The notes below the pieces were generated by a model, which saw only the letters and a program-made list of their open reading frames with translations, was not told where the DNA came from and searched no databases. Below are positions 1,193-12,906 of a DNA stretch of 12,906 nucleotides, piece after piece. Origin of the DNA: Deltaproteobacteria bacterium (GTDB taxonomy: Bacteria; Campylobacterota_A; Desulfurellia; JAGGSF01); assembly GCA_021159235.1 (NCBI GenBank), contig JAGGSF010000121.1, positions 1-12,906 on the forward strand, written 5' to 3'. Made by a program: the position numbers and the translations under genes. How positions within the stretch are numbered: position 1 is the first letter of the stretch; every line of letters starts with the position of its first letter.

Positions 1193-2263
1193 ATGAAAAT
1201 AGCACAGATATGCCACAGGTATTATCCAAATAGAGGCGGGGTGGAGAATCATGTGAAGGAGATAAGCGAGAGGTTAGCTAAGAAATTTCATGTAGAGGTT
1301 ATAAGTGCCGATCTATCTTCGGATAATTCTCATAACGAAGAAATAAATGGGGTTAAGGTAAAAAGATTTAGTTCAATCGCTCCCAACGATGCTTACTTCT
1401 TTTCGCCACAGATTTTGTTTTATCTAAGAAAGTCTGATTTTGATATTATACACGCACATAATTATCACGCTTTTCCGGCTTTATTTGCGTCTTTAGTTAA
1501 AGGTAGAAAGTTCGTTTTTACACCACATTATCATGGAATTGGCAGCACTGCTTTTCGTGATTTCCTGAATAGATCTTACAAATTGCTTGGCTCAAAAATA
1601 TTTGAGAGAGCGGATAAGATAATATGCGTTTCGGAGTTTGAGAAAGAACTGATAATAAGGAATTTCGGAATTTTGGAGGATAAAATGGTAGTTATTCCCA
1701 ATGGTGTTGCTCTCAAGGAAATAAAGGAAGCAAAACCTTTTGGTTTTGATGCTGATTTGGTTTTATACGTTGGAAGATTAGAGAAGTATAAAAATATTCA
1801 TTTGGTGATAAAAGCGATGGAGTTTTTACCAGAGTGTTATTTTTATATCATAGGAGCAGCGGGGAATTATAAGAATGAATTAGGAAAGCTCATTCACAAG
1901 CTGAATTTAGAGAACAGGGTAAAAATACTAAGTGATGTTTCAGATGAAGAAAAATACAGATGGCTGAAGACCTGTTCGCTGTTTATCAATTTGTCAGGCA
2001 TCGAAGCGTTTGGAATGACGGTGTTAGAAGCATTAGCGGCGGGGAAGCCTGTGATTGTGAACGACAAAGGGGGATTAAGAGAGATTGCAGAGAAATTTCA
2101 CGATGCTGTTATTTCTATACATGCGGAGAGCATATCTGCGGAAAGATTGGCATCACTCATCGAGAAAGCCATAGGAAAAGTTGCGAAAATTGATGTTAGT
2201 GAATACAATTGGGAGTGTGTAGTTGATAAAATTGAGAATATCTATGAAAAGGTGAGCATATGA
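1193..2263 (+). CDS. GT4 family (GT-B fold) glycosyltransferase
   Basis: A 356-residue retaining glycosyltransferase of the GT4 class. The N-terminal Rossmann domain starts with MKIAQICHRYYPNRGGVENH, with the donor/acceptor loop GGVENH at 15-20 and a HAHNYHA motif at 87-93. The hinge and C-terminal domain begin near VIPNGV (167-172). LYVGRLEKYKN (191-201) is the usual first strand of the donor-binding domain. The EX7E motif is intact: Glu271 and Glu279 in GIEAFGMTVLEA, followed by LAAGKPVIVNDKGGL. Length is normal for the family. It shares a 4-base ATGA overlap with the membrane glycosyltransferase at 2260, indicating translational coupling. A short, clearly related piece of a GT4 C-terminal domain sits at 4623-4685. 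Sugar specificity cannot be told. Confidence 0.92.
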   Translation: MKIAQICHRYYPNRGGVENHVKEISERLAKKFHVEVISADLSSDNSHNEEINGVKVKRFSSIAPNDAYFFSPQILFYLRKSDFDIIHAHNYHAFPALFASLVKGRKFVFTPHYHGIGSTAFRDFLNRSYKLLGSKIFERADKIICVSEFEKELIIRNFGILEDKMVVIPNGVALKEIKEAKPFGFDADLVLYVGRLEKYKNIHLVIKAMEFLPECYFYIIGAAGNYKNELGKLIHKLNLENRVKILSDVSDEEKYRWLKTCSLFINLSGIEAFGMTVLEALAAGKPVIVNDKGGLREIAEKFHDAVISIHAESISAERLASLIEKAIGKVAKIDVSEYNWECVVDKIENIYEKVSI

Positions 2264-3951
2264 AATTGGTATCTGGGGACAAAATAAGAGAGTATGCGAA
2301 TAAGATAAGCATTTCACCTATCATGATCATCGGGATTTGCGTGTTTTTCGCAGTATTCCTCTCAACAGCCATATTTATCATTGAGGATAAAAAGCCTCAG
2401 GCATGGGATCAGGCATTGCACATGACATGCTCTTTCCTCTATTATCAGCTCACAAGAGCATTTAATTTTGGGGATTTTGTGAAAGTTAGCAACTATTACC
2501 CTCCTTTTTTCCACCTCTGCTCCGTCCCGCTTTATTTCTTGTTCGGTTTTTCAGAGGATGTTGCTATTGCGACAAATTTAATCTTCTACGCTGTTCTCGT
2601 CTTCTCTGTGTTCAAAATTGGCGAACATTTCGGAGATAAAGAGACAGGCATTCTCGCGGCAATCCTTGTATCTTTCTATCCACTCTTACTAATACTTCAG
2701 CGTGAATATATGCTGGACTTCGCACTTACGGCGATGTGCGCGCTCGCTTTGCTCCTCCTCTTGAAATCAGATTGCTTTAGAAAACCTCTCATAACTGCTC
2801 TTTTTGGCATAACATTCGGTCTCTGTGAACTCACGAAATGGTCAGCTTTTGTTTTCATCTTGCCTGCGATATTTGCGATATTTATGATTGAATTTGGAAA
2901 GATTAGGAGTGTTTGTGCGCAATGCGGTAAAAAGCTCGGCGAGAAAATTTTCGTTGAGGGTTTATATAGATTCTGTTCAAAGCGATGTGCGAAGATTTTT
3001 GCTGAAAATCCGAGACCGATTGTATCAATTATATCAAGCACGCAAATCACGAATATTATCATCGCTCTCGCACTCGCAATTGTCGTCCTTGGATGGTGGT
3101 ATATTCCGAATTGGGAAGAAGTGAGCATACGCTTAAAATACTTCTCTACGATAAGAGGTGTCAGTGAGAGAGACCCTACAATATTTACGCTTGAAGGCTG
3201 GCTTTACTACATAAAGGCGCTGGATGTGAGCATGGGGCTCTTATTTTTCGTGCTTGCCCTGTTTTCACTAATCTTCTTACTGCAGAGGAAAGATAAAAGA
3301 GCAGTGTTCTTTTTCATTTCCGTTATCATACCATACCTTATATTAACCGCAATGAGTAATAAAGGTGATAGATATATCTTGCCAGTTCTCCCAGTTCTTG
3401 CAGTCTCTACTGCTATCTTTTTGAGAGAGCTTCCTCATGCTTTTCGCAGAGTGGAAGGGAAAAAGTTACAGAGGTTTCTAATGGCAGTGATTCTTTTTGT
3501 GGGCATGATGCAGCTGCTCACGGTCACTGTGGGCTTTCCTAAAATTGAGAATTCCCTGCTTTATCCCAAACCTGTTGCTCCTGATACAGCAGATTGGAAG
3601 ATTGACGAACTTCTTTCTGCGATAAATCAAAATGGTGGCGGCGCGGTTGTCGTTCTTCCAGACCATCCTTACTTGAATGGACAATCATTAAACTTCTATC
3701 GGTTGAAAAATGGCTACAATTTCCCCGTTTTCAACGGCGTTTATATCGGATATGAAACAGTGAAGGCAAATTTTGACAGAATAAAATACTTTGTGCTAAT
3801 CGAGCCAAGGGAGCATGGAAGTGAGGTATTCGGTGGAGAAGAGGCAAGACTATATCAATTATTCTATGAAAGACAGCGGAACTTTGAAAGAATTGCGCAG
3901 TTCTCTCTCCCAGATAATACCTCCCTTCTATTGTATGAGCGTAAAGAATGA
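2260..3951 (+). CDS. Multi-span ArnT/PMT-like membrane glycosyltransferase with an embedded YHS/TRASH-like zinc finger
   Basis: A 563-residue integral membrane protein resembling the GT-C superfamily (PMT/ArnT/GT39-83), which uses lipid-linked sugars on the outer face of the membrane. Hydrophobic segments lie near 19-41, 100-121, 129-148, 152-168, 193-211, 263-281, 322-341, 347-366, 370-388 and 404-424. Asp50 in the first outer loop (AWDQALH) fits the catalytic aspartate, and KGDRYILPVLP (368-378) is the late-helix motif of the family. A soluble C-terminal part covers about 425-563. Unusually, the loop at 212-256 carries CAQC (219-222) and FCSKRC (238-243) followed by FAENP, the layout of a YHS/TRASH metal-binding finger. 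Counting helices places it in the cytoplasm, which is an inference. The start overlaps the preceding stop by ATGA. Confidence 0.82.
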   Translation: MKLVSGDKIREYANKISISPIMIIGICVFFAVFLSTAIFIIEDKKPQAWDQALHMTCSFLYYQLTRAFNFGDFVKVSNYYPPFFHLCSVPLYFLFGFSEDVAIATNLIFYAVLVFSVFKIGEHFGDKETGILAAILVSFYPLLLILQREYMLDFALTAMCALALLLLLKSDCFRKPLITALFGITFGLCELTKWSAFVFILPAIFAIFMIEFGKIRSVCAQCGKKLGEKIFVEGLYRFCSKRCAKIFAENPRPIVSIISSTQITNIIIALALAIVVLGWWYIPNWEEVSIRLKYFSTIRGVSERDPTIFTLEGWLYYIKALDVSMGLLFFVLALFSLIFLLQRKDKRAVFFFISVIIPYLILTAMSNKGDRYILPVLPVLAVSTAIFLRELPHAFRRVEGKKLQRFLMAVILFVGMMQLLTVTVGFPKIENSLLYPKPVAPDTADWKIDELLSAINQNGGGAVVVLPDHPYLNGQSLNFYRLKNGYNFPVFNGVYIGYETVKANFDRIKYFVLIEPREHGSEVFGGEEARLYQLFYERQRNFERIAQFSLPDNTSLLLYERKE

Positions 3952-3980: not shown

Positions 3981-4376
3981 ATGGAAAATAAGATGAGGAG
4001 CAAAATTGATGTTAGGGATATAGAGAAGGTATTAAAAGGATTTAAAGAGATAGAATTTGCTTACTGCTTCGGTTCTTTCCTCGATAAAGAAACGTTTAAT
4101 GACATAGATATAATCGGTCCATACGAGGGTTTGAAGCTCTCTTTAAAGGTGGGGAGGGAGTTGGAAAGGGTGATAAAGCCGAGAAAGAGGATAGATGTGA
4201 AGATTCTTACTCACGCACCAATAGCACTTCAATATGAGGTTATAAAAAAGGGTGAAGTTATTTTTTCTAAGAATGATACGATGCGAAAGAGGTATGAGGC
4301 AGAGGTGCTCTCAAGTTATTTGGATTATAAAGCAACATCGGATTGGTTAGATAGGAAATTTCTTGCGAAGGTGTGA
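3981..4376 (+). CDS. mntA: MntA-like minimal nucleotidyltransferase (antitoxin of an MNT/HEPN pair)
   Basis: A 131-residue protein of the DNA polymerase beta-like minimal nucleotidyltransferase family. In characterised pairs of this family the enzyme adds AMP units to the HepT toxin and so silences it. The active site is complete: CFGSF at 29-33, then DIDI with Asp41 and Asp43, and a third carboxylate at Asp72 in RIDVKIL. The ATG at 3981 is preceded by GAGGATAAGGGA; a second ATG four codons later is an alternative. The remains of its HepT partner begin 3 nt after the stop, so this was a normal two-gene module. With the toxin destroyed, the enzyme is left without its expected local target. Confidence 0.85.
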   Translation: MENKMRSKIDVRDIEKVLKGFKEIEFAYCFGSFLDKETFNDIDIIGPYEGLKLSLKVGRELERVIKPRKRIDVKILTHAPIALQYEVIKKGEVIFSKNDTMRKRYEAEVLSSYLDYKATSDWLDRKFLAKV

Positions 4377-4379
4377 TAT

Positions 4380-4591
4380 ATGTTTGATGAGAGGGGCATA
4401 CTGGACCATCTAAGGGAGCTGAATGAATCACTGAAAGATTGGAAGAGGTATCAATCCATCTCACTCGAGGAGTTGCGTGCTGACAGGGACAAGAGGAACA
4501 TGGTGCTCCATGCCCTGCTCATAAACATTTTGCTGTGTTGAAGGAATTTAAGAGGATTGTGAAGAGATTGTTACAAGAGGAAATAGAATAA
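4380..4591 (+). pseudogene. hepT: HepT-like HEPN toxin gene with an internal deletion
   Basis: The ATG at 4380 starts a typical HepT (DUF86) N-terminus, FDERGILDHLRELNESLKD, continuing to LEELRADRDKRN and MVLHALLI, then stops at 4539-4541 after 53 residues. Immediately after, in another frame, positions from about 4524 to 4591 encode HFAVLKEFKRIVKRLLQE, the usual last helix of HepT. The two halves belong to one family but the middle is missing. HepT proteins are normally about 130-145 residues, so roughly 60-70 residues, including the RX4-6H ribonuclease motif, were lost, and the join is out of frame. The gene cannot make an active RNase. Its antitoxin at 3981 is intact. Confidence 0.8.
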
Positions 4592-4622
4592 CCGTGGCTT
4601 TGAACCATTGGAGGGTGAGATT

Positions 4623-4685
4623 TTTGGGATGACCGTGTTGGAGGCTTTAGCGGCGGGGAAGCCTGTGATCGTGGACGACAAAGGG
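4623..4685 (+). pseudogene. Orphan scrap of a GT4 glycosyltransferase C-terminal domain
   Basis: Twenty-one codons read FGMTVLEALAAGKPV and continue through a VDDKG end. This is the EX7E/donor-site region of a GT4 enzyme and matches residues 273-293 of the GT4 gene at 1193, both as protein and closely as DNA (similar codons, including GCGGCGGGGAAGCCTGTGAT). There is no full domain on either side: the frame runs into a stop at about 4716, overlapping the protease pseudogene that starts at 4697. It is a relic of a third or duplicated GT4 gene, left between two other broken genes. Confidence 0.7.
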
Positions 4686-4696
4686 TGTGCGATGAA

Positions 4697-5051
4697 ATGG
4701 GATTTACACACGTAAAAATATCGGTTCAAAATCCTGCAAGAAGGGAGAGGGGGAGGGAAGTTGAATTGCTCATAGATACCGGTGCTGTGATCTCGGTCAT
4801 TCCTAAGGAGAAAGGAAATCGGAATACGTGCTATTGGTAAGAGAAAGTTTAGGGTTTTTGGTGGTGAACTAATTGAGAGAGAGGTTGGTGTGGTCATCAT
4901 GGAATACGAAGATACTTGCGCTGGAGTTACTGTCGCTTTCGGTGAGGAGGGTGATACACCAATCTTAGGAGTAACTGCCTTGGAGACCCTTGGATACCAA
5001 GTAGATCCGGTAACGAAGAAGCTTAAGAAAGTAGAGCTTTTGATAGTATGA
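4697..5051 (+). pseudogene. Retropepsin-like (clan AA) aspartic protease gene, frameshifted
   Basis: Positions 4697-4840 encode 47 residues with the aspartic protease active-site motif LLIDTGAVISVIP, then hit a TAA. From about 4815 a different frame continues the same kind of protein: GIRAIGKRKF, a GGELIEREVGVVIMEYE strand region, GEEGDTPILGVTALETLG and a VDP end, stopping at 5049-5051. Single-domain archaeal proteins of this type are about 115-120 residues with one DTGA and one hydrophobic-GVTALE flap/psi-loop motif, and the composite has both. The junction (4809-4816) carries the frame change and perhaps a loss of a few codons. The cellular role of this family is poorly known. The stop overlaps the next gene's ATG as ATGA. 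Confidence 0.72.
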
Positions 5052-5260
5052 CCTCCGATATTATATCAAAGTGTTGGAAGGGCGTTATGATTGCAATTGG
5101 AGTAATTATGCTTATAGCTTCATTTTATTTCTCATGGTCATCATGGAAATCTGCTAACTCTTTTGCTGAAAAAGACCATACACTTATAGCGGTAAAAATT
5201 TTATTTTTGCTTTTTATGATAGGAATTGGCACATATTTAACCGGAAAGGAGTGGAATTAG
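5048..5260 (+). CDS. Small two-helix membrane protein, function unknown
   Basis: A 70-residue protein with two clear hydrophobic helices, about residues 13-31 (GVMIAIGVIMLIASFYFSW) and 47-64 (ILFLLFMIGIGTYLTG), joined by a short polar loop. I do not recognise the family. Its ATG overlaps the stop of the broken aspartic protease gene (ATGA), and it lies just before a second membrane protein gene with close spacing, so the two may form a membrane pair. Nothing in the sequence points to an enzyme activity. Confidence 0.6.
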   Translation: MTSDIISKCWKGVMIAIGVIMLIASFYFSWSSWKSANSFAEKDHTLIAVKILFLLFMIGIGTYLTGKEWN

Positions 5261-5292
5261 CATTAGAAATAATGAAAATAGAAAGGGGGCAA

Positions 5293-5946
5293 ATGAAAAA
5301 GCAAGAGAAGGGAGAAAGGAAGAATCGGCAGAAGAACAGGCAAGAAGAAATGATAAGGAGTATTTATGAGGAGAATTGGGAGCACATGAGGCATATTGAG
5401 ACTGAAAGATACTGGTTTCTTAATGTGTATGCACTGGTATTAGGTGCCATCGTTTCAGGAATACTTATGAGCGACAAGAGCTGGGAGGAATTCCTTCCTT
5501 ACATCCTTCTTTTTTTGTTCTTCTTCTCTTTGATTTGGTCTTTTATGACACTGAAACTAAATATAGAGTATTCCAGAATTAGAAAGCAAAATAAAGCATT
5601 GTTAGAGGAATATTACGACGAATTGCTAGAATATATGCATCTGCCAATAGGCGCAGAAATAAAAGGAAAAACTATCTTTCACCACCTTTTTTCAGTTGGT
5701 AGTTTGGCTTGGATTTTCTATGCCCTTGTTGCTTCTACATCACTTGGATTCCTCTTTTATCTTACATATGCAAATAACCATGTAAAAAATATTTTGGAAA
5801 TCGTCTTATCTCCTTATTTTTACGTCCCGTTCTCTATCACTTTGTTTCTTCTTACTCTTGTGCACGAGTGGTTATGGAAAAAATGGAGATACGTTGGAAC
5901 ACTTCAGAAAAGGGTTTGGTCTGCCGATGGCTCGTGGGAGCCTTAG
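5293..5946 (+). CDS. Four-helix membrane protein with a basic coiled-coil-like N-terminus, function unknown
   Basis: About 217 residues from ATG 5293, which I prefer because AGGGGG lies 3 nt upstream; a GTG at 5251 in the same frame would add 14 residues and overlap the previous gene. The first 25 residues are almost all Lys, Arg, Glu and Gln. Then comes an ENWEHMRHIETERYWFLN segment leading into helices near 41-59, 68-87, 133-157 and 175-192 (numbered from 5293), with a charged cytoplasmic-looking stretch between helices 2 and 3. This layout recalls small SLATT-type or related membrane effectors, but that is only a resemblance. The end (DGSWEP) overlaps the hairpin and duplicated block that lead into the next nucleotidyltransferase gene. 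Confidence 0.6.
   Translation: MKKQEKGERKNRQKNRQEEMIRSIYEENWEHMRHIETERYWFLNVYALVLGAIVSGILMSDKSWEEFLPYILLFLFFFSLIWSFMTLKLNIEYSRIRKQNKALLEEYYDELLEYMHLPIGAEIKGKTIFHHLFSVGSLAWIFYALVASTSLGFLFYLTYANNHVKNILEIVLSPYFYVPFSITLFLLTLVHEWLWKKWRYVGTLQKRVWSADGSWEP
5929..5942 (+). promoter_or_regulatory. Small inverted repeat upstream of the nucleotidyltransferase promoter (copy 1)
   Basis: GGCTC-GTGG-GAGCC forms a perfect 5-bp stem with a 4-base loop, 18 nt before the TTTAAA box. The second copy at 8209 keeps the stem through a paired C:G to T:A change. It also codes for the last residues of the upstream membrane protein. It could be an operator for autoregulation or a transcript hairpin; neither is proven. 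Confidence 0.4.
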
Positions 5947-5960
5947 CCGTAAGATGGAAA

Positions 5961-5983
5961 TTTAAAGGTACAAAAAGGTACAA
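5961..5983 (+). promoter_or_regulatory. TATA box followed by a tandem 10-bp repeat
   Basis: TTTAAA at 5961-5966 would place transcription start near 5990, just ahead of the AGGGTGAT ribosome binding site (5991-5998) and ATG 6003. Overlapping the box is AAAGGTACAA twice in perfect tandem (5964-5973 and 5974-5983), one DNA turn apart, a good layout for a repressor site. The second nucleotidyltransferase copy at 8267 lacks these repeats. Confidence 0.5.
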
Positions 5984-6002
5984 AACCAAGAGGGTGATAT
6001 AT

Positions 6003-6329
6003 ATGGAAATCTCGGAGAGACGCAGGGAAGCCGTGGAAGAATTTGTAAGAAGGGCACTGAGTAGATATGGCGACAGGATAGAGAGCATCATCCTATTCGG
6101 TTCTGTTGCGAGGGGAGAGGCGAAAGAGGATTCCGACATCGATATTTTAGTCGTAACCAAAAAGGAAGACTTCAGGTTGAGGCGTATGCTTATAGAAATA
6201 GCCTTTGATATTCTGCTGGATACGGGAGAGAATATTTCTGTGAAAGCTCTATCAAAAGACGAATTTGAAAGGCGTAAAAACTTTTCATTTTTGAGGAGTG
6301 TTATTTCGGAGGGCATAAGAATTGCCTGA
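6003..6329 (+). CDS. Minimal nucleotidyltransferase (MNT antitoxin), copy 1
   Basis: A 108-residue pol-beta-type nucleotidyltransferase, probably the antitoxin of an MNT/HEPN pair. The active-site helix is IILFGSVARGEAKEDSDIDI, with Gly33-Ser34 and Asp45/Asp47. The position that often carries a third acid reads ISVKALS, so it lacks an Asp there. I choose ATG 6003 because of AGGGTGAT 4 nt upstream and because the second copy at 8267 begins at the same residue; upstream in-frame codons belong to the overlapping membrane gene end. Its toxin partner is reduced to a 22-residue stub at 6322. Residues 1-51 are nearly identical to the copy at 8267, while the C-terminal half differs strongly. Confidence 0.85.
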   Translation: MEISERRREAVEEFVRRALSRYGDRIESIILFGSVARGEAKEDSDIDILVVTKKEDFRLRRMLIEIAFDILLDTGENISVKALSKDEFERRKNFSFLRSVISEGIRIA

Positions 6330-6390
6330 GGAAGGGGAGATTGAGGCACTTATTGAGAGAGCAAAAAGGAGGCTTGATGCGAGGCGATAA
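6322..6390 (+). pseudogene. N-terminal stub of a HEPN toxin gene
   Basis: A TTG at 6322, overlapping the MNT stop, opens 22 codons reading PEEGEIEALIERAKRRLDA and then a stop at 6388-6390. The charged helical start and its place right after an MNT gene fit the first helix of a HEPN-domain toxin. GGAGGG at 6308-6313 could serve as its ribosome binding site. The rest of the domain is gone, replaced by the next nucleotidyltransferase gene, which starts 18 nt later. Confidence 0.5.
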
Positions 6391-6408
6391 GACTTGCGGA
6401 GAAAATCA

Positions 6409-6793
6409 ATGCATTTGCAAGAAAATAAGATAACAACCCTTTTAGAGGAGCTGAGGGGAAAAGGTGTTGAGCCAGAATCTATCATATTATTCGGCTCTTT
6501 TGCGAAAGGGAATTACACTGAGAGTAGCGATATTGATGTATTAATTGTATTGAGGAGCGATATGGATTGGTTTAATAAGCAACTCTTAGTAAGCAGTGCA
6601 GACGCTATTAACACCGGAGGAGTTAGAGATGATGTTTTATGAGAATAATGGATTTATCCTGGATGTTTTAGAGGATGGTATTGTTTTACATGATAATGGA
6701 TATTGGAAAGAGATGAAGGAGGAATTCTTGGATAGGAAGAAATTGGGTGCTATTAAGAGGATAAAAAACGGATGGAAAATAAAAGGTAAATGA
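6409..6793 (+). pseudogene. Second-type nucleotidyltransferase gene, frameshifted
   Basis: From ATG 6409 (GCGGAG 7 nt upstream) the frame encodes MHLQENKITTLLEELRGKG and the nucleotidyltransferase motif IILFGSFAKGNYTESSDIDV, then leaves the family after about 61 residues and stops at 6640-6642. A second frame, opening at about 6593, gives the expected C-terminus: LLTPEELEMM, NNGFILDVLEDGIVLHDNG and a basic end, stopping at 6791-6793. The two parts together give a normal protein of about 125 residues, so a short indel lies near 6590-6600. The sequence differs clearly from the MNT copies at 6003 and 8267, so this is a separate subfamily. Read alone, the first part keeps the catalytic Asp pair but lacks the C-terminal half. 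Confidence 0.65.
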
Positions 6794-6797
6794 TTGA

Positions 6798-6980
6798 TGT
6801 GAGTACACTCACCAAAAAGAGAGAAAAAAATGGGCGACGAAGATACTCGGGAAGGAGGAAAAGAATTTCTTTGAGTGGGAAGTGATTCTGACAGAAATGA
6901 ATAAGTTAAGGGGTGTTGATAAATATAAGCTGGTGTTTCTAAATCGCATAAGGGGAATAAATATAAATCGAGATGGCTAA
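6798..6980 (+). pseudogene. Unrecognised reading frame without a start, probable gene remnant
   Basis: An open frame of 60 codons ends with TAA at 6978-6980. It has no good start codon at its 5' side, only an internal ATG near 6897. The part that looks like protein reads KKWATKILGKEEKNFFEWE, then ILTEMNKLRGVDKYKLVFLN. It is rich in Lys/Glu/Leu with no stop-prone stretch, so it may be the C-terminal part of a former gene. I do not recognise a family. The AT-rich end of this frame contains the probable promoter of the RelB/RelE pair. Confidence 0.3.
6960..6968 (+). promoter_or_regulatory. TATA box of the RelB/RelE-like module
   Basis: AATATAAAT is centred about 39 nt before ATG 7003. Allowing the usual archaeal spacing, transcription would start near 6990, just before the AGGTGAG ribosome binding site at 6992-6998. 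Confidence 0.5.
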
Positions 6981-7002
6981 TAAGTGAATGTAGGTGAGAG
7001 AA

Positions 7003-7224
7003 ATGGAGGTAGAAAAAAAGGAGTATATAAAAGGTGTCGTCGCTTCGGCTGTGTATAGAGATATGGTAAAACTGAGGGAGGAAATGGATGCCATCATTGA
7101 AACTTTGGAGATAATGAGTGATGAGGAGTTGATGGAGGGGATAAGGAGGTCGAAAGAAGATCTAAAAGCTGGGAGATACAAGGAGTTAAAGAGTGTGGAG
7201 GAACTTGATGAAATTTGGGGATGA
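7003..7224 (+). CDS. RelB-like antitoxin of a type II toxin-antitoxin pair
   Basis: A 73-residue, highly charged, mostly helical protein. The C-terminal half (SDEELMEGIRRSKEDLKAGR and the following SVEELDEIWG end) matches the Glu-rich toxin-wrapping tail seen in archaeal RelB-type antitoxins. The N-terminal 35 residues would hold the dimer/DNA-binding part, though I see no clear ribbon-helix-helix signature. ATG 7003 is chosen over GTG 6994 because AGGTGAG ends 4 nt before it. The stop shares ATGA with the toxin gene at 7221. Such pairs usually repress their own promoter. The module is intact. Confidence 0.7.
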   Translation: MEVEKKEYIKGVVASAVYRDMVKLREEMDAIIETLEIMSDEELMEGIRRSKEDLKAGRYKELKSVEELDEIWG

Positions 7225-7466
7225 AAGTAATTTACACCAAGGAATTTGAGGATGACTTGAAGAGAGTGCGGGACAGAGGAATGCAAATGAGAATAAAGAA
7301 GAGCATTCAAAAGATAATGGATAATCCTAGTATTGGAAAACCTTTAAGATACGAACTTTCAGGTCTGAGAAGTCTAAGGATTCCACCTTTCAGAATAATC
7401 TATGAACTTAAAGATGATTTGATAATTTTACACAAGTTTGAGCACAGGAAAAGAGTTTATGAATGA
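7221..7466 (+). CDS. relE: RelE-family mRNA interferase toxin
   Basis: An 81-residue protein of the RelE/ParE superfamily. It has the expected order: MKVIYTKEFEDDLKR start, an amphipathic helix pair to about residue 38, GKPLRYELSGLRSLRI (39-54) and a PFRIIYEL strand (56-63), ending in HKFEHRKRVYE. Arg53, Arg58, His75, Arg76 and Tyr80 sit where RelE-type toxins carry their basic and aromatic catalytic residues. Members cut mRNA on the ribosome, while ParE members poison gyrase; the Arg- and His-rich end favours RelE. ATG 7221 overlaps the antitoxin stop. The stop is 4 nt before a copy of a glycosyltransferase 5' end. This is one of only two fully intact pairs here. Confidence 0.8.
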   Translation: MKVIYTKEFEDDLKRVRDRGMQMRIKKSIQKIMDNPSIGKPLRYELSGLRSLRIPPFRIIYELKDDLIILHKFEHRKRVYE

Positions 7467-7470
7467 ACGA

Positions 7471-7644
7471 GTGAAAATTATACACTGGAATATCTCCAAG
7501 CGATCTCATCCTGTTTATGTATTACGAAAATATGAGGATGCGTTGTTCAGCCATCTAAAGGAGCTAGGGCAAGATTGGGATATAGAGAGGATTTGGCGAA
7601 GTGATGGAAAGATTCTTGGGAGCACCGTCTTCTCATGCCTTTAG
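7471..7644 (+). pseudogene. 5'-end stub of a GT4 glycosyltransferase (duplicate of the gene at 10025)
   Basis: Starting at GTG 7471, 57 codons encode KIIHWNISKRSHPVYVLRKY and onward to GKILGSTVFS, the same as the first 55 residues of the intact GT4 gene at 10025 with few changes. A TAG at 7642-7644 ends it where the intact gene continues with its first Rossmann fold. Bases 7594-7637 are identical to 10148-10191 over 44 positions. The stub follows the RelE stop by 4 nt, and an ATG at 7459 in the same frame overlaps the RelE gene. It cannot form an active enzyme. Confidence 0.88.
7594..7637 (+). repeat. 44-bp exact direct repeat shared with 10148-10191
   Basis: These 44 bases match 10148-10191 with no difference. 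They code for the segment WRSDGKILGSTVFS in both reading frames. Identity without even silent changes, while the flanking parts of the same duplicate differ, suggests recent duplication or local gene conversion. Confidence 0.9.
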
Positions 7645-7694
7645 CAATATTTGAAAAATGACAAGGAAATGGTTTAAAGTGGTTAATTTGGAGA

Positions 7695-7958
7695 ATGAGA
7701 TTAGAAATTATTCCTCTGGCATTGAAGAAGATAAGAAGGCGAAAGATACCGATAGAATGGATTGAAGAGACCGTGAGCAATCCAAATCAAGTGGTTGAAG
7801 GTTATAGGGGGAGAAGGGTTGCACAGAAAGTTTATTATGTGGGAGATAAGAAAATGTTATTAAGGGTGGTGTTGGAAGATAATGATACAGTGGTGACGGC
7901 ATATCTCACATCGCAGGTGAGTAGATACTGGAGGGATGAGCATGAAAATAGAGTATGA
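7695..7958 (+). CDS. DUF4258 family protein, probable toxin of a TA pair
   Basis: An 87-residue protein with the DUF4258 pattern: an N-terminal helix (LALKKIRRRKIPIEWIEETV, residues 8-27), NPNQVVEG, GRRVAQKVYYVG, a hydrophobic MLLRVVLE strand, and a VVTAYLTSQVSRYW end. DUF4258 proteins are RelE-like small domains often paired with DUF2283 proteins, as here: the stop of this gene lies 17 nt inside the DUF2283 gene. The toxin role follows from this pairing and fold class rather than from a measured activity. A TTTAAA at 7673-7678 lies close upstream, but at a spacing short for a leaderless start. Confidence 0.8.
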   Translation: MRLEIIPLALKKIRRRKIPIEWIEETVSNPNQVVEGYRGRRVAQKVYYVGDKKMLLRVVLEDNDTVVTAYLTSQVSRYWRDEHENRV

Positions 7959-8148
7959 TCCGAAGTATGACATAATGAATATAGAGTTTATAGCGGAGGG
8001 GGATATAGCGGAGAGTGTGGAGTTGGAAGACGGCATAATTGTGGATTATGGGGAGGATAAAAAAGTTGTGTCCATTGAGATATTAGACGTTAAGAAGAGA
8101 GTGAGTGAAAAGAAATTAGAGGGTGTAAGTTTCGTGATTCTCAAATGA
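7942..8148 (+). CDS. DUF2283 family protein, probable antitoxin partner
   Basis: A 68-residue protein opening with the DUF2283 signature MKIEYDPKYDIMNIEF, then ESVELEDGIIVDYGEDKKVV and SIEILDV. The domain is a small beta-rich fold common beside DUF4258 genes. ATG 7942 is chosen because GGAGGG (7930-7935) lies 6 nt upstream; the ATG at 7936 is too close to that site. The gene overlaps its neighbour by 17 nt at the start, and its own stop overlaps the ATG of a glycosyltransferase stub (ATGA). The pair is intact. Its regulation is not evident. Confidence 0.85.
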   Translation: MKIEYDPKYDIMNIEFIAEGDIAESVELEDGIIVDYGEDKKVVSIEILDVKKRVSEKKLEGVSFVILK

Positions 8149-8207
8149 AAATAGTCCATTGGAGTATATCTAAAGCGGAGCATCCAATGTATGCACTGCG
8201 AAGGTGA
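8145..8207 (+). pseudogene. Second 5'-end stub of the same GT4 glycosyltransferase
   Basis: ATG 8145 starts 20 codons, MKIVHWSISKAEHPMYALRR, then a TGA. They align without gaps to the first 20 residues of the GT4 gene at 10025. The first 14 bases and a 21-base run (8180-8200 against 10060-10080) are identical. The homology ends abruptly at about 8201, where the duplicated nucleotidyltransferase leader block begins. The start overlaps the DUF2283 stop as ATGA, just as the intact gene's start overlaps the PIN gene's stop. Confidence 0.85.
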
Positions 8208-8208
8208 T

Positions 8209-8222
8209 GGCTTGTGGAAGCC
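8209..8222 (+). promoter_or_regulatory. Small inverted repeat upstream of the nucleotidyltransferase promoter (copy 2)
   Basis: GGCTT-GTGG-AAGCC keeps the 5-bp stem and GTGG loop of the copy at 5929, with the closing pair changed from C:G to T:A. Both copies are followed by CTTAGYCGTAA. The preserved pairing hints at a constrained site, but one covarying pair is weak evidence. Confidence 0.4.
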
Positions 8223-8235
8223 TTAGTCGTAAAAC

Positions 8236-8242
8236 TTTAAAA
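8236..8242 (+). promoter_or_regulatory. TATA box of the second MNT/HEPN module
   Basis: TTTAAAA centred 28 nt before ATG 8267 would put transcription start at or next to the start codon, so this message is probably leaderless. No Shine-Dalgarno site is seen, unlike copy 1 at 6003. Confidence 0.5.
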
Positions 8243-8266
8243 GATGAAAACAAAAAGATGAAGCAC

Positions 8267-8650
8267 ATGAAAATCTCTGAGAGACGCAGGAAAGCCGTGG
8301 AAGAATTTGTAAGAAGGGCACTGGGCAGATATGGTGACAGGATAGATAGTATCATCCTGTTTGGGTCTGTTGCGAGGGGAGAAGCGAAAGAGGATTCTGA
8401 CATTGATATTTTGGTAGTTGGTGATGTGAGCTTAGAAGAATTGGTAGAGGTATCGTTTCCAATATTATTAGAATATGGTGAGCTTATTTCAGCGAAGAGT
8501 ATGAAAAAAGACCGTTTTGATTTCGCAGCAAAGGAAGGACATTCATTTGTAAGAAATGTCTTGAGGGAAGGAGTGGTGTTATATGAAAGAATGGGAGAAG
8601 CATTTGGAGAGGGCGGAAGAGAAGCTGAGGGCGGCAAATCTTTTACTTGA
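8267..8650 (+). CDS. Minimal nucleotidyltransferase (MNT antitoxin), copy 2
   Basis: A 127-residue pol-beta-type nucleotidyltransferase. The motif IILFGSVARGEAKEDSDIDI gives Gly33-Ser34 and Asp45/Asp47; the position that often carries a third acid is ISAKSMK, without Asp, as in copy 1. ATG 8267 matches the start of copy 1; in-frame codons upstream to 8204 belong to the leader. The last 22 residues (from ERMGEAFGEGG on) are translated from the first 68 bases of the HEPN gene in another frame, an unusually long overlap for such a pair. Residues 1-51 match copy 1 in 47 positions, while the C-terminal half is only distantly similar, so one copy is probably a mosaic. Confidence 0.85.
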   Translation: MKISERRRKAVEEFVRRALGRYGDRIDSIILFGSVARGEAKEDSDIDILVVGDVSLEELVEVSFPILLEYGELISAKSMKKDRFDFAAKEGHSFVRNVLREGVVLYERMGEAFGEGGREAEGGKSFT

Positions 8651-8958
8651 GCATGTTTTCCGAAGCCATAAGCGAGGCGTATTATGCAATGTTTCATGCT
8701 GCCAAAGCTTTGCTTGCATTAAGAGGCATCTATCCGAAGACGCATGCTGGTGTTGTTTCGCAGTTCGGATTGCAGTTTGTTACTGAAGGACTTATTGAGG
8801 AATTATATGCGAAGAGTTTGGCAAAAGCGGAAACGAAGCGTGAAGAGGCAGATTATGACATATATTTCGAGCCATCCGAAGAAGAAGCCGAAGCCATTGT
8901 CAAGGATGCGGAGAAGTTTTTAGAGAGGATAAAAAGAGCTTTGGAAGAGTTGAGATGA
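8583..8958 (+). pseudogene. HEPN-domain toxin gene with a frameshift
   Basis: ATG 8583 encodes the usual HEPN start, EWEKHLERAEEKLRAANLLL, but this frame leaves the family after about 24 residues near 8656. A second frame resumes with FSEAISEAYYAMFHAAKALL, then an RGIYPKTH stretch (an R-x6-H arrangement near 8725-8748), GVVSQFGLQF, DIYFEPSEEEAEAIV and a charged last helix, stopping at 8956-8958. The composite is about 126 residues, normal for this family. The change is equivalent to a missing 2 bases. An ATG at 8647 in the second frame could start a truncated 103-residue product lacking helix 1, so residual activity is conceivable. The stop overlaps the next frame by ATGA. Confidence 0.7.
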
Positions 8959-9286
8959 TAGAAGTGAGGGACGTCCTTTTCATACATTCCTTAAACATGC
9001 ATGAAGCGCACAGGATGTTTGCGGAAGCCCTTTACTCCCCTTCGGTCAAAGCCCTTGGGGGAAGATGCTTCGCGGAAGCGATAGAAAGAGATTTTTGGGC
9101 TTGCTTACCCGAAAACTAAAAGTTTTCAGGAGATTTGTAGAAGCATTCAAAAGAGCGAAGGGGTATCCCGATTATCCTGTTTACGTGCTTGAAGGTGGGA
9201 TGCCTATGTTTCCAATCTATTTTAAGAAGAGGAAAAGGAAAGATATAAATTATAAATATCCATATATTCATATTGTTAAGAGGTGA
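8955..9286 (+). pseudogene. Frameshifted N-terminal fragment of a probable glycosyltransferase
   Basis: ATG 8955 overlaps the HEPN stop (ATGA) and opens 54 codons: MIEVRDVLFIHSLNMHEAHR, then FAEALYSPSVKALGG and FAEAIERD, stopping at 9117-9119. At the T-run 9092-9096 the -1 frame takes over smoothly with FLGLLTRKLKVFRRFVEAF and YPDYPVYVLEGGMPMFPIYF, ending at 9284-9286. One extra T would join them. The order (a hydrophobic first strand, a helix, then a YxVYxLEGG strand and a membrane-side loop) resembles the N-terminal domain of a GT4-like enzyme. The naming is tentative because the C-terminal donor domain is missing. The fragment ends in AT-rich sequence forming the next promoter. Confidence 0.5.
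9250..9258 (+). promoter_or_regulatory. TATA box of the UPF0175/PIN module
   Basis: TTATAAATA is centred 40 nt before ATG 9294. The implied transcription start near 9280 sits right before the AGGTGATGAT ribosome binding site at 9281-9290. Confidence 0.55.
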
Positions 9287-9566: not shown

Positions 9567-10028
9567 AAATAGTATCTAATTCCTCTCCTTTAATCGCACT
9601 TGCAAAAATTAGGAAGCTGGGTATATTGAGAGAAGAAGTTGTTATCCCAAAGGCGGTTTTTGATGAAATAACCAAATCTAAGAAAGAATATGCGAAGGAA
9701 TTGTATGAATGGGGCAAAGATAGGGTTGCCGAGGTGAAGAACAGCAGTTGAATATTTGGAGATGATAGTGGACAAAGGAGAAGCGGAAATGATTACATTA
9801 GCCGAAGAGATGAACGCAGAAGCTGTGTTAATTGATGACTTAAAAGCAAGAAAAATAGCAAAACTTAGAGGATTAAACGTTATTGGAACGATAGGTGTTC
9901 TGTTAGATGCAAAGGAGAAAGGGGTCATAAAGGAATTGAAGCCATTGTTGGACGAGCTAATAGAAAAGAGAATTAGGATACGCAGAGAACTTTATGACCA
10001 TGCCTTGGAGTTGGCTAACGAAAAATGA
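9563..10028 (+). pseudogene. PIN-domain (DUF3368) toxin gene with a frameshift
   Basis: ATG 9563 encodes the DUF3368 start MKIVSNSSPLIALAKIRKLG, then VVIPKAVFDEI, and stops at 9749-9751. From about 9744 another frame continues the same domain: AVEYLEMIVDKGEAEMITLA with its acidic residues, AVLIDDLKARKIAKLRGLNV carrying further acidic residues, GTIGVLLDAKEKGVI and a helical end, stopping at 10026-10028. The composite is about 154 residues, normal for these predicted metal-dependent RNases. The join needs a +1 shift near 9737-9746. The second half has only a TTG start and lacks the N-terminal strand, so an active product is unlikely. The stop overlaps the intact glycosyltransferase's ATG. Confidence 0.75.
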
Positions 10029-11065
10029 AAATAGTCCACTGGAACATCTCAAAAAAATCGCATCCAATGTATGCACTGCGGAAGTATGAGGATGCGTTAT
10101 TCAGCCATATAAAGGAGCTGAGGCAAGAGTGGGATATAGGAAGAATATGGCGAAGTGATGGAAAGATTCTTGGGAGCACCGTCTTCTCATGGTTTTTCTA
10201 TAAAAGCAACAATGCTGATATAGTGCATGCAACTTCGCAGACCGTAGCTCCTGCCGTTTATTTCAGACTTAAGAAATCAAAGAAATTTATCGTAACTGTG
10301 CATGATTTAGCACCGCTGGTGTATCCTTCCGAAATAACTGATGTTTCAATGAAAATACAGTTCATGCTCACGCCAAGAGCGCTGAAAAAAGCGGACAGGA
10401 TAATAGCAATATCAGAATTTACGAAGGGGGAGATAATGAGATTACTGGGGATAGAGGAGGAAAGAATAAGCGTTGTTTACCAAGGCGTTGACCATAAGAG
10501 ATACAAGCCGATGGACAAGATTGAATGCAAGAGGAAGTTTGGGTTGAATCCGGAGGAGAAACATATATTGGTTGTATCGTCTAACATAGAGCACAAGCGA
10601 ATGGATTTAGCGAAAAAGATATTTAATTATATACGGTCAATAAGAGAAGATGTGAAGATGATAAAGGCGGGGTATGGAGAATTGCTGGAAGGGGACGGGG
10701 TGATAAGCGTGGGATGGGTGCCTGAGGAGCGGATGCCGCTGCTATTCAACGCTGCGGATGTTTTCCTGCACACGAGCGAATACGAGGGCTTCGGCTTGCC
10801 GGTGCTCGAGGCGATGGCGTGCGGCACGCCAGTCGTTGCGTTTAAAAAGGCGAGTATACCCGAAGTATTAGGAAATTGCGGGCGCTTGGTCGAGTCAGGC
10901 GACGGAGAAGGTGTGGTGAAGGCGTTTGTTGATAAAATCCTTGAGATGATGGACAAGGGTAAAGATTGGAGGGCTGTGGAGCGTAGCAAGATGTTTTCTT
11001 GGAGGAAGACGGCTGAGGAGACGATAAAAGTGTATGGAGAGTTGATAAGGGATGAAGGTGCTTAA
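10025..11065 (+). CDS. GT4 family glycosyltransferase, intact member of the duplicated 5'-end set
   Basis: A 346-residue GT4 enzyme. The N-terminal domain runs from MKIVHWNISKKSHPMYALRK to about residue 150, with ADIVHATSQ (64-72), VTVHDLAPLVYP (90-101) and a DRIIAISEFTKGEI helix. The donor domain follows, with an ILVVSSNIEHKR strand-loop (181-192). The EX7E motif is Glu254/Glu262 in EYEGFGLPVLEAMACGTPVV. It begins by ATGA overlap with the PIN pseudogene, so it probably depends on the UPF0175 promoter at 9250. Stubs of its 5' end occur at 7471 and 8145. From about 10660 the bases become visibly richer in G and C than in the first half, hinting at a mosaic origin. The next gene overlaps its end by 14 nt. 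Confidence 0.92.
   Translation: MKIVHWNISKKSHPMYALRKYEDALFSHIKELRQEWDIGRIWRSDGKILGSTVFSWFFYKSNNADIVHATSQTVAPAVYFRLKKSKKFIVTVHDLAPLVYPSEITDVSMKIQFMLTPRALKKADRIIAISEFTKGEIMRLLGIEEERISVVYQGVDHKRYKPMDKIECKRKFGLNPEEKHILVVSSNIEHKRMDLAKKIFNYIRSIREDVKMIKAGYGELLEGDGVISVGWVPEERMPLLFNAADVFLHTSEYEGFGLPVLEAMACGTPVVAFKKASIPEVLGNCGRLVESGDGEGVVKAFVDKILEMMDKGKDWRAVERSKMFSWRKTAEETIKVYGELIRDEGA
10148..10191 (+). repeat. 44-bp exact direct repeat shared with 7594-7637
   Basis: This is the copy inside the intact GT4 gene, covering the codons for WRSDGKILGSTVFS. See the partner at 7594. Confidence 0.9.
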
Positions 11066-12161
11066 CATTTCACGGCTCAAACTGAACGATAAGCACAACT
11101 ACTACGGAGGAGCTATTGGGAATATTGCCTACAATTTAATGCGCTCGCTTGCCGAGCTGGGAGTGGAAATTGTGACTTTTACTGAAGGTGTTGATTTAGA
11201 AAGAGAACCGCCCGAAAATCTAAAATTTATCGAGGCACATTCGTTCAGGGAGATTTTGCAAAAGACGAGCAAGCTCCTTGATGAAGAAAAATTTCAAGTT
11301 GTAACACACTTTTATTTTCATGAACCCGAATTCAATCCAGTTGCAAAGTTTGTTAAGAGGCGAGGGATTCCGTTCGTCATAGGCATGTGCGAGCTTCCGC
11401 ATCCCCGCCTCAATGACGAGGTTAGTGGCATCTTGAAAATTCGTCCGGTGAGAATTTTGGGGAAATATTGGGTCTTGCCGAAGTTTAAAGAGACTCTAAG
11501 GCTTTGCGACGGCTTAATCGTTGTGAATGAAGCGGCGAAGGCGTATTATGGTCAATTCGTGGAAGAGGGCAAAATCCGAGTCATCCCCTACGGCGTAGAT
11601 TTGGAGCGTTTTCGCTACGCTCCTCTACCAGATACACCGAGGATCCTGACGGTGAGCAGACTTATAAAGAGGCGAGGAGTTGATTATTTAGTGAGGGCGA
11701 TGCCTGAGATACTGCGGGAATCCCCGAAAGCGGAACTTCACTTTGTTGGCGAGGGGGCAAGAAAGGAAATTTTAAGAAAATTGGCTGAAAAATTGGGCGT
11801 GGCTTCAAAGGTCTTTTTCCATGGAAACGTTCCGGCAGAGGAGCTTGTTAAGCTTTATAGGGATTGCTATGTATTCTGCCACTTGTCTTTTGCAGATGGC
11901 TGGAATCAGCCGGCTTTAGAAGCTATGGCTACGGGTAGGCCGGTGGTATGTACAAATGCTCCGCATAATAGTATGGTTGATGATGGTGAAACGGGTTTTC
12001 TTCTTCCATTTGGGGATGTTGAAGAGTTGGTAGAAAAATTAATGAGGCTCGTTAAAGATAGGAGATTGGCTGAGAGAATGGGTGCAAAATCTCGAAAGAA
12101 GGCTGAAAATGAATACGACTGGGGAAATATTGCAAAAAGGTATTACAAAGTTTTTGAATGA
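11052..12161 (+). CDS. GT4 family glycosyltransferase with Asp in place of the first EX7E glutamate
   Basis: A 369-residue GT-B enzyme. The N-terminal domain has an MKVLNISRLKLNDKHNYYGG start, with the glycine loop at 19-23, and a THFYFHEPEFNP segment at 85-96. The linker IPYGVDLERF (178-187) leads to ILTVSRLIKRRGVDYLVRAM, the classic first part of the donor domain, then LHFVGEGARKE and VFFHGNVPAEELVKLY. The acid pair is Asp282 and Glu290 in ADGWNQPALEAMATGRPVVC, so the usual first Glu is replaced by Asp; some GT4 groups tolerate this. TGETGFLLP-type sequence (DGETGFLLPFGD, 311-322) is intact. It overlaps the previous gene by 14 nt and the next by ATGA, so all three are co-translated. Confidence 0.92.
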   Translation: MKVLNISRLKLNDKHNYYGGAIGNIAYNLMRSLAELGVEIVTFTEGVDLEREPPENLKFIEAHSFREILQKTSKLLDEEKFQVVTHFYFHEPEFNPVAKFVKRRGIPFVIGMCELPHPRLNDEVSGILKIRPVRILGKYWVLPKFKETLRLCDGLIVVNEAAKAYYGQFVEEGKIRVIPYGVDLERFRYAPLPDTPRILTVSRLIKRRGVDYLVRAMPEILRESPKAELHFVGEGARKEILRKLAEKLGVASKVFFHGNVPAEELVKLYRDCYVFCHLSFADGWNQPALEAMATGRPVVCTNAPHNSMVDDGETGFLLPFGDVEELVEKLMRLVKDRRLAERMGAKSRKKAENEYDWGNIAKRYYKVFE

Positions 12162-12906
12162 CCTTCACATACAACATACACAATGTTTTAAAGATACAAT
12201 CTGATGTTCGGTTGATGAACTATGCGTTCCACAAATACTTTCTCTCAGATGAGACAGATGATCCAGACATTATTATAAGAATTGCTAAAGATATTGAAAA
12301 ACCAAAGGGGTTGAGTAGACATGATAGATGGTTTTACGGAAAAGAGGGGGAAGATTTGGTCTACTACGAGGACAACTTACTCGGAATGAATGACAAAGTT
12401 CTCGTAAAAAATATAAAAGAAAAACCTACGGAAATAATAGTAACAAAGTCTGTGCTTAAGTTTACACCCCGTTCGAGAGGTAGCCTATCTGACTTGATTG
12501 AAGCAATTATTGACTTAAAACTTTCAAAAACAGGGTTCGCAACATTACATGCTGGAACTTTATCAAAAAATGGTTTGGCGGTTGTTCTGACAGGGTTCCC
12601 AAATGTGGGAAAGACGCTTTGCACGCTTTACCTTTTAAAGAATGGTTTCAAATACATGGGAGATGATAACGGGATGATAGATAAGGATGGTAATGTTTAC
12701 TGTTACCCTTCAACATCTTCAATTGGCTACCATGATTTCCTCAAGTTCATAGAGCCTGACGACATCGGGCGATTTAGATATTACAAGCATTTAATCAGGG
12801 TTCTTCCGATGAGGGTAAAGATTGTGGAACGTCTGTTCAATTATCCTGAGATATATCTACCAGATATCAAAAGGTATGGACAGGAAGATAAAGCAAAAGC
12901 CAAGGT
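12158..12906 (+). CDS. HprK-like P-loop kinase, 3' end outside the window
   Basis: ATG 12158 overlaps the preceding GT4 stop (ATGA) and the frame stays open for 249 codons to the window edge. A beta-rich N-terminal region of about 125 residues precedes FATLHAGTLSKNG (127-139) and the Walker A loop LTGFPNVGKTLCTLYLL (144-160), with Gly146, Lys152 and Thr153. YMGDDNGMIDKDG (167-179) follows, the acidic pair placed like the catalytic and metal-binding segment of HPr kinase/phosphorylase-related proteins (HAG before Walker A and DD after it). Such HprK-like genes occur in surface polysaccharide and peptide-modification clusters; the phosphate acceptor is unknown. The first 125 residues show no named domain to me. 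Confidence 0.7.
   Translation, partial: MTFTYNIHNVLKIQSDVRLMNYAFHKYFLSDETDDPDIIIRIAKDIEKPKGLSRHDRWFYGKEGEDLVYYEDNLLGMNDKVLVKNIKEKPTEIIVTKSVLKFTPRSRGSLSDLIEAIIDLKLSKTGFATLHAGTLSKNGLAVVLTGFPNVGKTLCTLYLLKNGFKYMGDDNGMIDKDGNVYCYPSTSSIGYHDFLKFIEPDDIGRFRYYKHLIRVLPMRVKIVERLFNYPEIYLPDIKRYGQEDKAKAK

Follow-up and report, generated by a model that had tools for sequence, protein, structure and literature searches.

The window (the whole 12,906-nt stretch of contig JAGGSF010000121.1 that was analyzed) encodes a GT-C membrane glycosyltransferase that, judging from its motif, its profile matches and the conservation of its ligands, carries an FCS-type zinc finger in a loop on the likely cytoplasmic side of the membrane. 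We propose that this finger is a structural zinc module that docks a cytoplasmic partner, most likely on the donor-making side of the pathway (GT2/GT4 glycosyltransferases), a reading to which we assign a probability of roughly 45%. GT-C enzymes and FCS fingers are each of a known kind; none of the open-access papers searched described the two combined at this loop position, or a GT-C enzyme with a zinc finger.

Position and conservation of the finger

The GT-C gene (positions 2260–3951; forward strand, as are D50, the finger loop and its parts, and the GT2 and GT4 genes at 365–1189 and 1193–2263) encodes a 563-aa protein that matches PMT_2 (PF13231; E = 3.8e-10) with 40.7 bits, exceeding the cut-off of 26.1, and has at least 10 hydrophobic segments by hydropathy; the enzyme probably adds sugars to surface glycans. 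D50 (AWDQALH; positions 2407–2409), in the first external loop, aligns with an Asp of archaeal and bacterial relatives and is the candidate catalytic residue, a role that, like the sidedness of the protein, is transferred from GT-C enzymes. The finger lies in a basic loop (residues 214–262; positions 2899–3045; 10 K/R versus 3 D/E) flanked by hydrophobic segments 195–213 and 263–281, the latter leading to a large loop (residues 282–322). In TMTC enzymes, the TM6–TM7 loop is cytoplasmic and the next loop is luminal (PMC7801869). Based on homology to this TMTC/ArnT topology and on the basic charge, the finger loop is likely cytoplasmic, in agreement with the side that the first-pass annotation had obtained by counting helices.

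The same annotation had reported a CxxC pair, an FCSxxC motif and a FAENP stretch in this protein, and these are present at residues 219, 238 and 247, respectively. The core of the finger (C219-x2-C222-x16-C239-x3-C243; positions 2914–2988) spans residues 219–243, CAQCGKKLGEKIFVEGLYRFCSKRC, with CAQC starting at residue 219 (nt 2914) and FCSKRC at residue 238 (nt 2971); C222 and F238 are separated by 15 residues. Of the FAENP stretch downstream (positions 2998–3012), only F/Y is conserved in homologues. The protein has 10 cysteines in total; when its residues were shuffled, the pattern CX2CX14-30FCSX2C arose in 2 of 100,000 shuffles, and a looser four-ligand pattern in 330 of 100,000.

Conservation among homologues is stronger evidence for the finger than the shuffle test. 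The GT-C family was present in 10 of 392 sampled genomes, in searches centered on an archaeal MAG and its phylum. An allele with 97% protein identity to the window enzyme retains all four cysteines, and the homologues of G486, G303, G257 and G218, which are 43–50% identical, have the ligands C/C/C/(C or H). The loops read CAQC..FCSKRC (window and G099), CAFC..FCSDRC (G486), CAYC..FCSKKH (G303), CPYC..FCSKKH (G257), CPYC..FCSQKH (G218) and CPYC..FRSKKH (G178), so that the fourth ligand varies between Cys and His, with His in G303, G257 and G218. Pairwise identity of the insert across the five finger lineages is 26–54%; its invariant residues are C, C, G, F, C, S and K, and the ligands are nearly its sole conserved residues. 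Exchange of Cys for His at a ligand position is tolerated by zinc sites. Retention of the ligands, together with this exchange, within an otherwise diverged insert points to joint selection on the four residues, and the finger very probably binds zinc. We infer a treble-clef fold; the model of the isolated loop yielded a beta-hairpin only (mean pLDDT 57, from a shallow alignment), and the full-length model had a mean pLDDT of 39, from an alignment consisting of one near-identical relative.

Four genomes (G280, G316, G314 and G317) encode a complete GT-C enzyme with a short loop and no finger, as do three bacterial GT-C relatives. In G178, the GT-C copy has several in-frame stops, and the third finger cysteine is replaced by Arg. 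A survey of the four cysteines had been put forward with the first-pass annotation as a check; random loss was not seen among the homologues, and the finger is missing either as a whole module (four genes) or from a gene that is already broken (G178). Since four genomes keep the enzyme but have no finger, the finger is not catalytic, and from this comparison it is a selected accessory module that is dispensable in one subclade. When only archaeal sequences were used for the tree, one branch with 100/100 support split the genes with a finger from those without; when a long-branched bacterial outgroup was added, the fingerless clade was nested among the finger genes, which would imply one gain and one loss. 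No relatives were found in viral contigs or plasmids. The broken G178 gene is located at 2,077,981–2,079,568 of record L045/L117, in a glycan locus that is otherwise similar.

Relationship to TRASH-clan families

All Pfam finger matches of the loops fall short of curated cut-offs. The excised window loop scored 19.8 bits against YHS (PF04945; cut-off 30.3), covering positions 24–40 of 47 only, with further sub-threshold treble-clef matches to zf-Vps39_C (19.4), VATC (18.4) and zf-FLZ (16.2). The best zf-FCS score was that of the G486 loop (22.3 bits, cut-off 22.4; DUF2116, 21.9), and the score of the window loop was lower and so likewise under the cut-off. For the G257 and G218 loops, the Pfam match was YacG, which we take to be the same family as DUF329. 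A six-loop profile searched against the PDB gave as its top match the FCS finger of PHC1 (Polyhomeotic; 2l8e; E = 9.4e-5), with both cysteine pairs aligned, followed by an RNA polymerase subunit, YacG, MYM5, eL24 and L3MBTL2; there were no YHS entries among the PDB matches of this profile. By hhalign, the loop profile matched archaeal eL24 with a probability of 90.8 versus 44.5 for archaeal YHS, although the latter profile is slightly weakened by a wrong ORF in one of its 10 rows. The best other finger-profile matches in genomes of the class of G257 were to ribosomal proteins that, on inspection by eye, we take to be eL24.

The zf-FCS consensus is CX2CX14-30FCSX2C, and the TRASH clan unites zf-FCS, YHS, L24e and DUF329 (PMC4047054). 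With its C-x2-C-x15-FCS-x2-C arrangement, the window sequence conforms to this consensus, and on these sequence comparisons the finger is FCS-type and belongs to the TRASH clan. Thus, of the YHS/TRASH layout originally proposed, the clan holds and the YHS family does not: the loop finger shares with YHS/TRASH metal-sensing domains the clan and the C-terminal FCSxxCxxxF half, but it lacks the DPVCGM half and has a CxxC pair in its place, its YHS match is sub-threshold, and profile comparison preferred eL24. The finger has the same spacing as the zf-FCS fingers of Polyhomeotic/PHC1, L3MBTL2 and MYM (PF06467, PF21319; 2l8e, 2w0t, 2das) and a basic C-terminal tail as they do; those are soluble chromatin proteins, whereas here the finger is in a loop of a membrane enzyme, with His as the fourth ligand in three lineages. 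YacG (a gyrase inhibitor; PF03884) and eL24 (PF01246) are of the same clan, have CxxC and FCSxxC, and gave significant or near-significant profile matches, but unlike the loop finger they are small, soluble, stand-alone proteins with GyrB and the ribosome, respectively, as partners. The loop region also matched a Nudix-like protein (L014), which was set aside as zinc-ribbon resemblance only. A YHS search of the assembly that holds the window (G000) returned nothing; the contig probably does not come from that genome (see below).

Gene neighborhood and proposed function

Upstream of the GT-C gene, and in the same direction, are genes for a GT2 glycosyltransferase (positions 365–1189; PF00535) and a GT4 glycosyltransferase (positions 1193–2263; PF13439/PF00534), the latter overlapping the GT-C start by 4 nt. 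A GT2 homolog is near the finger-bearing GT-C gene in G257, G178, G218 and G303, and a GT4 homolog adjoins GT-C in G257 and is close by in G178. G257 also has a GtrA-family gene, which overlaps the end of GT-C, and its GT2 homolog is 1.9 kb from GT-C; no GtrA match was identified among the window proteins scanned with Pfam. The fetched neighborhoods of the four fingerless genes contain no GT2 or GT4 in common with the window. This association of the finger with a GT2 neighborhood is suggestive only, and neither strict linkage nor strict dependence holds: three of the four fingerless genomes encode, on another contig, a GT2 that is 58–61% identical to that of G257, and G486 has the finger without an adjacent GT2. 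In bacteria, GT2/GtrA/GT-C sets produce polyprenyl-phosphate sugars, flip them and carry out the transfer (PMC8035078, PMC11127046). The finger-bearing enzymes resemble such GtrA/GtrB/GT-C systems, and PMT/ArnT/TMTC enzymes, in the PMT_2 match, the Asp of the first external loop, the linked GT2 and, in G257, the GtrA-family gene, and differ from them in the finger itself, which four archaeal and three bacterial relatives lack in this loop.

In the proposed mechanism, GT-C would take a sugar from a donor, presumably of the polyprenyl-phosphate type, at the outer face of the membrane and transfer it onto a glycan or glycoprotein of the cell surface. The finger would fold around one structural zinc in the cytoplasmic loop ahead of the large external one, where it could hypothetically dock a donor-side protein, most likely the linked GT2 or GT4; such docking would allow donor synthesis, flipping and transfer to happen together. 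The finger is opposite the presumed active-site face (D50) and has little conserved besides its zinc ligands, and zf-FCS fingers mediate protein–protein and protein–nucleic-acid contacts (PMC4047054). It is this placement, together with the dispensability of the finger and the contact role of FCS fingers, that favors docking. Contact with a cytoplasmic partner, which the first-pass annotation had offered beside metal sensing, is thus the most likely role and our leading idea, whereas the docking itself and the identity of the partner are hypothetical.

The near-exclusive conservation of the ligands would also suit a zinc site that is purely structural and has no partner, stapling the long cytoplasmic loop and aiding folding or stability of the enzyme, and the hosts are probably thermophiles (the related archaeal contig L031, described below, is from a hydrothermal source). 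We consider this unlikely, if the most serious of the competing explanations: relatives do well with a short loop and no finger, which indicates that shortening or stapling does not call for the insert, and contacts are the usual role of FCS fingers. Those contacts might instead be with nucleic acid (RNA, the ribosome or mRNA), tying glycosylation to translation or to placement at the membrane. The closest solved match is the RNA-binding FCS finger of PHC1, the loop profile resembles ribosomal eL24, and the loop has its 10 K/R residues; but the positive-inside rule already predicts a basic cytoplasmic loop and the TRASH clan includes many protein-binding members, and we regard nucleic-acid binding as distinctly less probable than a structural staple.

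Regulation of surface glycosylation by metal or redox state, the other suggestion of the first-pass annotation, gained no positive support and appears improbable. Kinship within the TRASH clan and the weak YHS match speak for it; against it, YHS is matched by half a profile while FCS, YacG and eL24 are closer, the four-ligand CCCC/CCCH site looks structural, and the window neighbors with a Pfam match are glycosyltransferases, nucleotidyltransferases and a ParE toxin, with no metal or redox gene among those tested. That the cysteines occur by chance in a long loop without any metal site would accord with Pfam scores under curated cut-offs for the window finger, and is very hard to credit given the rarity of the motif in shuffles, its conservation in divergent homologues and the significant match to a solved FCS finger.

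GT-C enzymes act on the outer side of the membrane, and little is known about how the cell keeps them in step with the making of donors on the inside. The broader proposition that a GT-C enzyme gained a cytoplasmic FCS finger coupling transfer on the outside to the inside of the cell, whether via donor-making enzymes or via RNA and ribosomes, is one that we advance as doubtful; if true, it would represent a layer of control that we did not find described for this enzyme class. Because it is conserved and faces the cytoplasm, the zinc finger of this one family would give direct access to the partner of GT-C.

Origin of the contig and the variable island

The assembly that holds the window (G000, 1.1 Mb) is a bacterial MAG, and its other sampled contigs encode bacterial proteins (which we take by eye to be LptD, UvrB and DnaK). 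Tetranucleotide correlation between the window and these contigs is 0.46–0.56, versus 0.65–0.83 among the contigs themselves. The correlation is 0.74 with a 3.3-kb contig (L031) of a ‘Methanosarcinales archaeon’ MAG; of four further contigs from this MAG, three gave 0.63–0.64, and L031 is 95–96% identical to the window at the DNA level in two blocks. No SSU rRNA of any kind, including archaeal, was recovered in G000. Based on the tetranucleotide profile and the near-identical archaeal contig, the window is probably of archaeal origin and was misbinned with bacterial contigs; homologue searches centered on G000 miss the GT-C family.

Directly after two GT4 genes, an open-ended ORF (positions 12158–12904) has a weak, sub-threshold match resembling the C-terminal domain of HPr kinase (PF07475; E = 0.0024). 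Where L031 has about 0.5 kb (1502–1988), the window has about 4.7 kb (4238–8977), and this island, absent from the near-identical contig, lies between glycan genes and contains nucleotidyltransferase (Polbeta/NTP_transf_2) genes and a ParE-like toxin gene. Partial duplicates with 81–89% identity are scattered through it: 7472–7637 and 8143–8200 copy 10023–10191, 4623–4685 copies 2009–2071, and 5926–6154 copies 8206–8418. They derive from the starts or insides of GT4 genes and a nucleotidyltransferase gene, suggesting that the island has been repeatedly rearranged.
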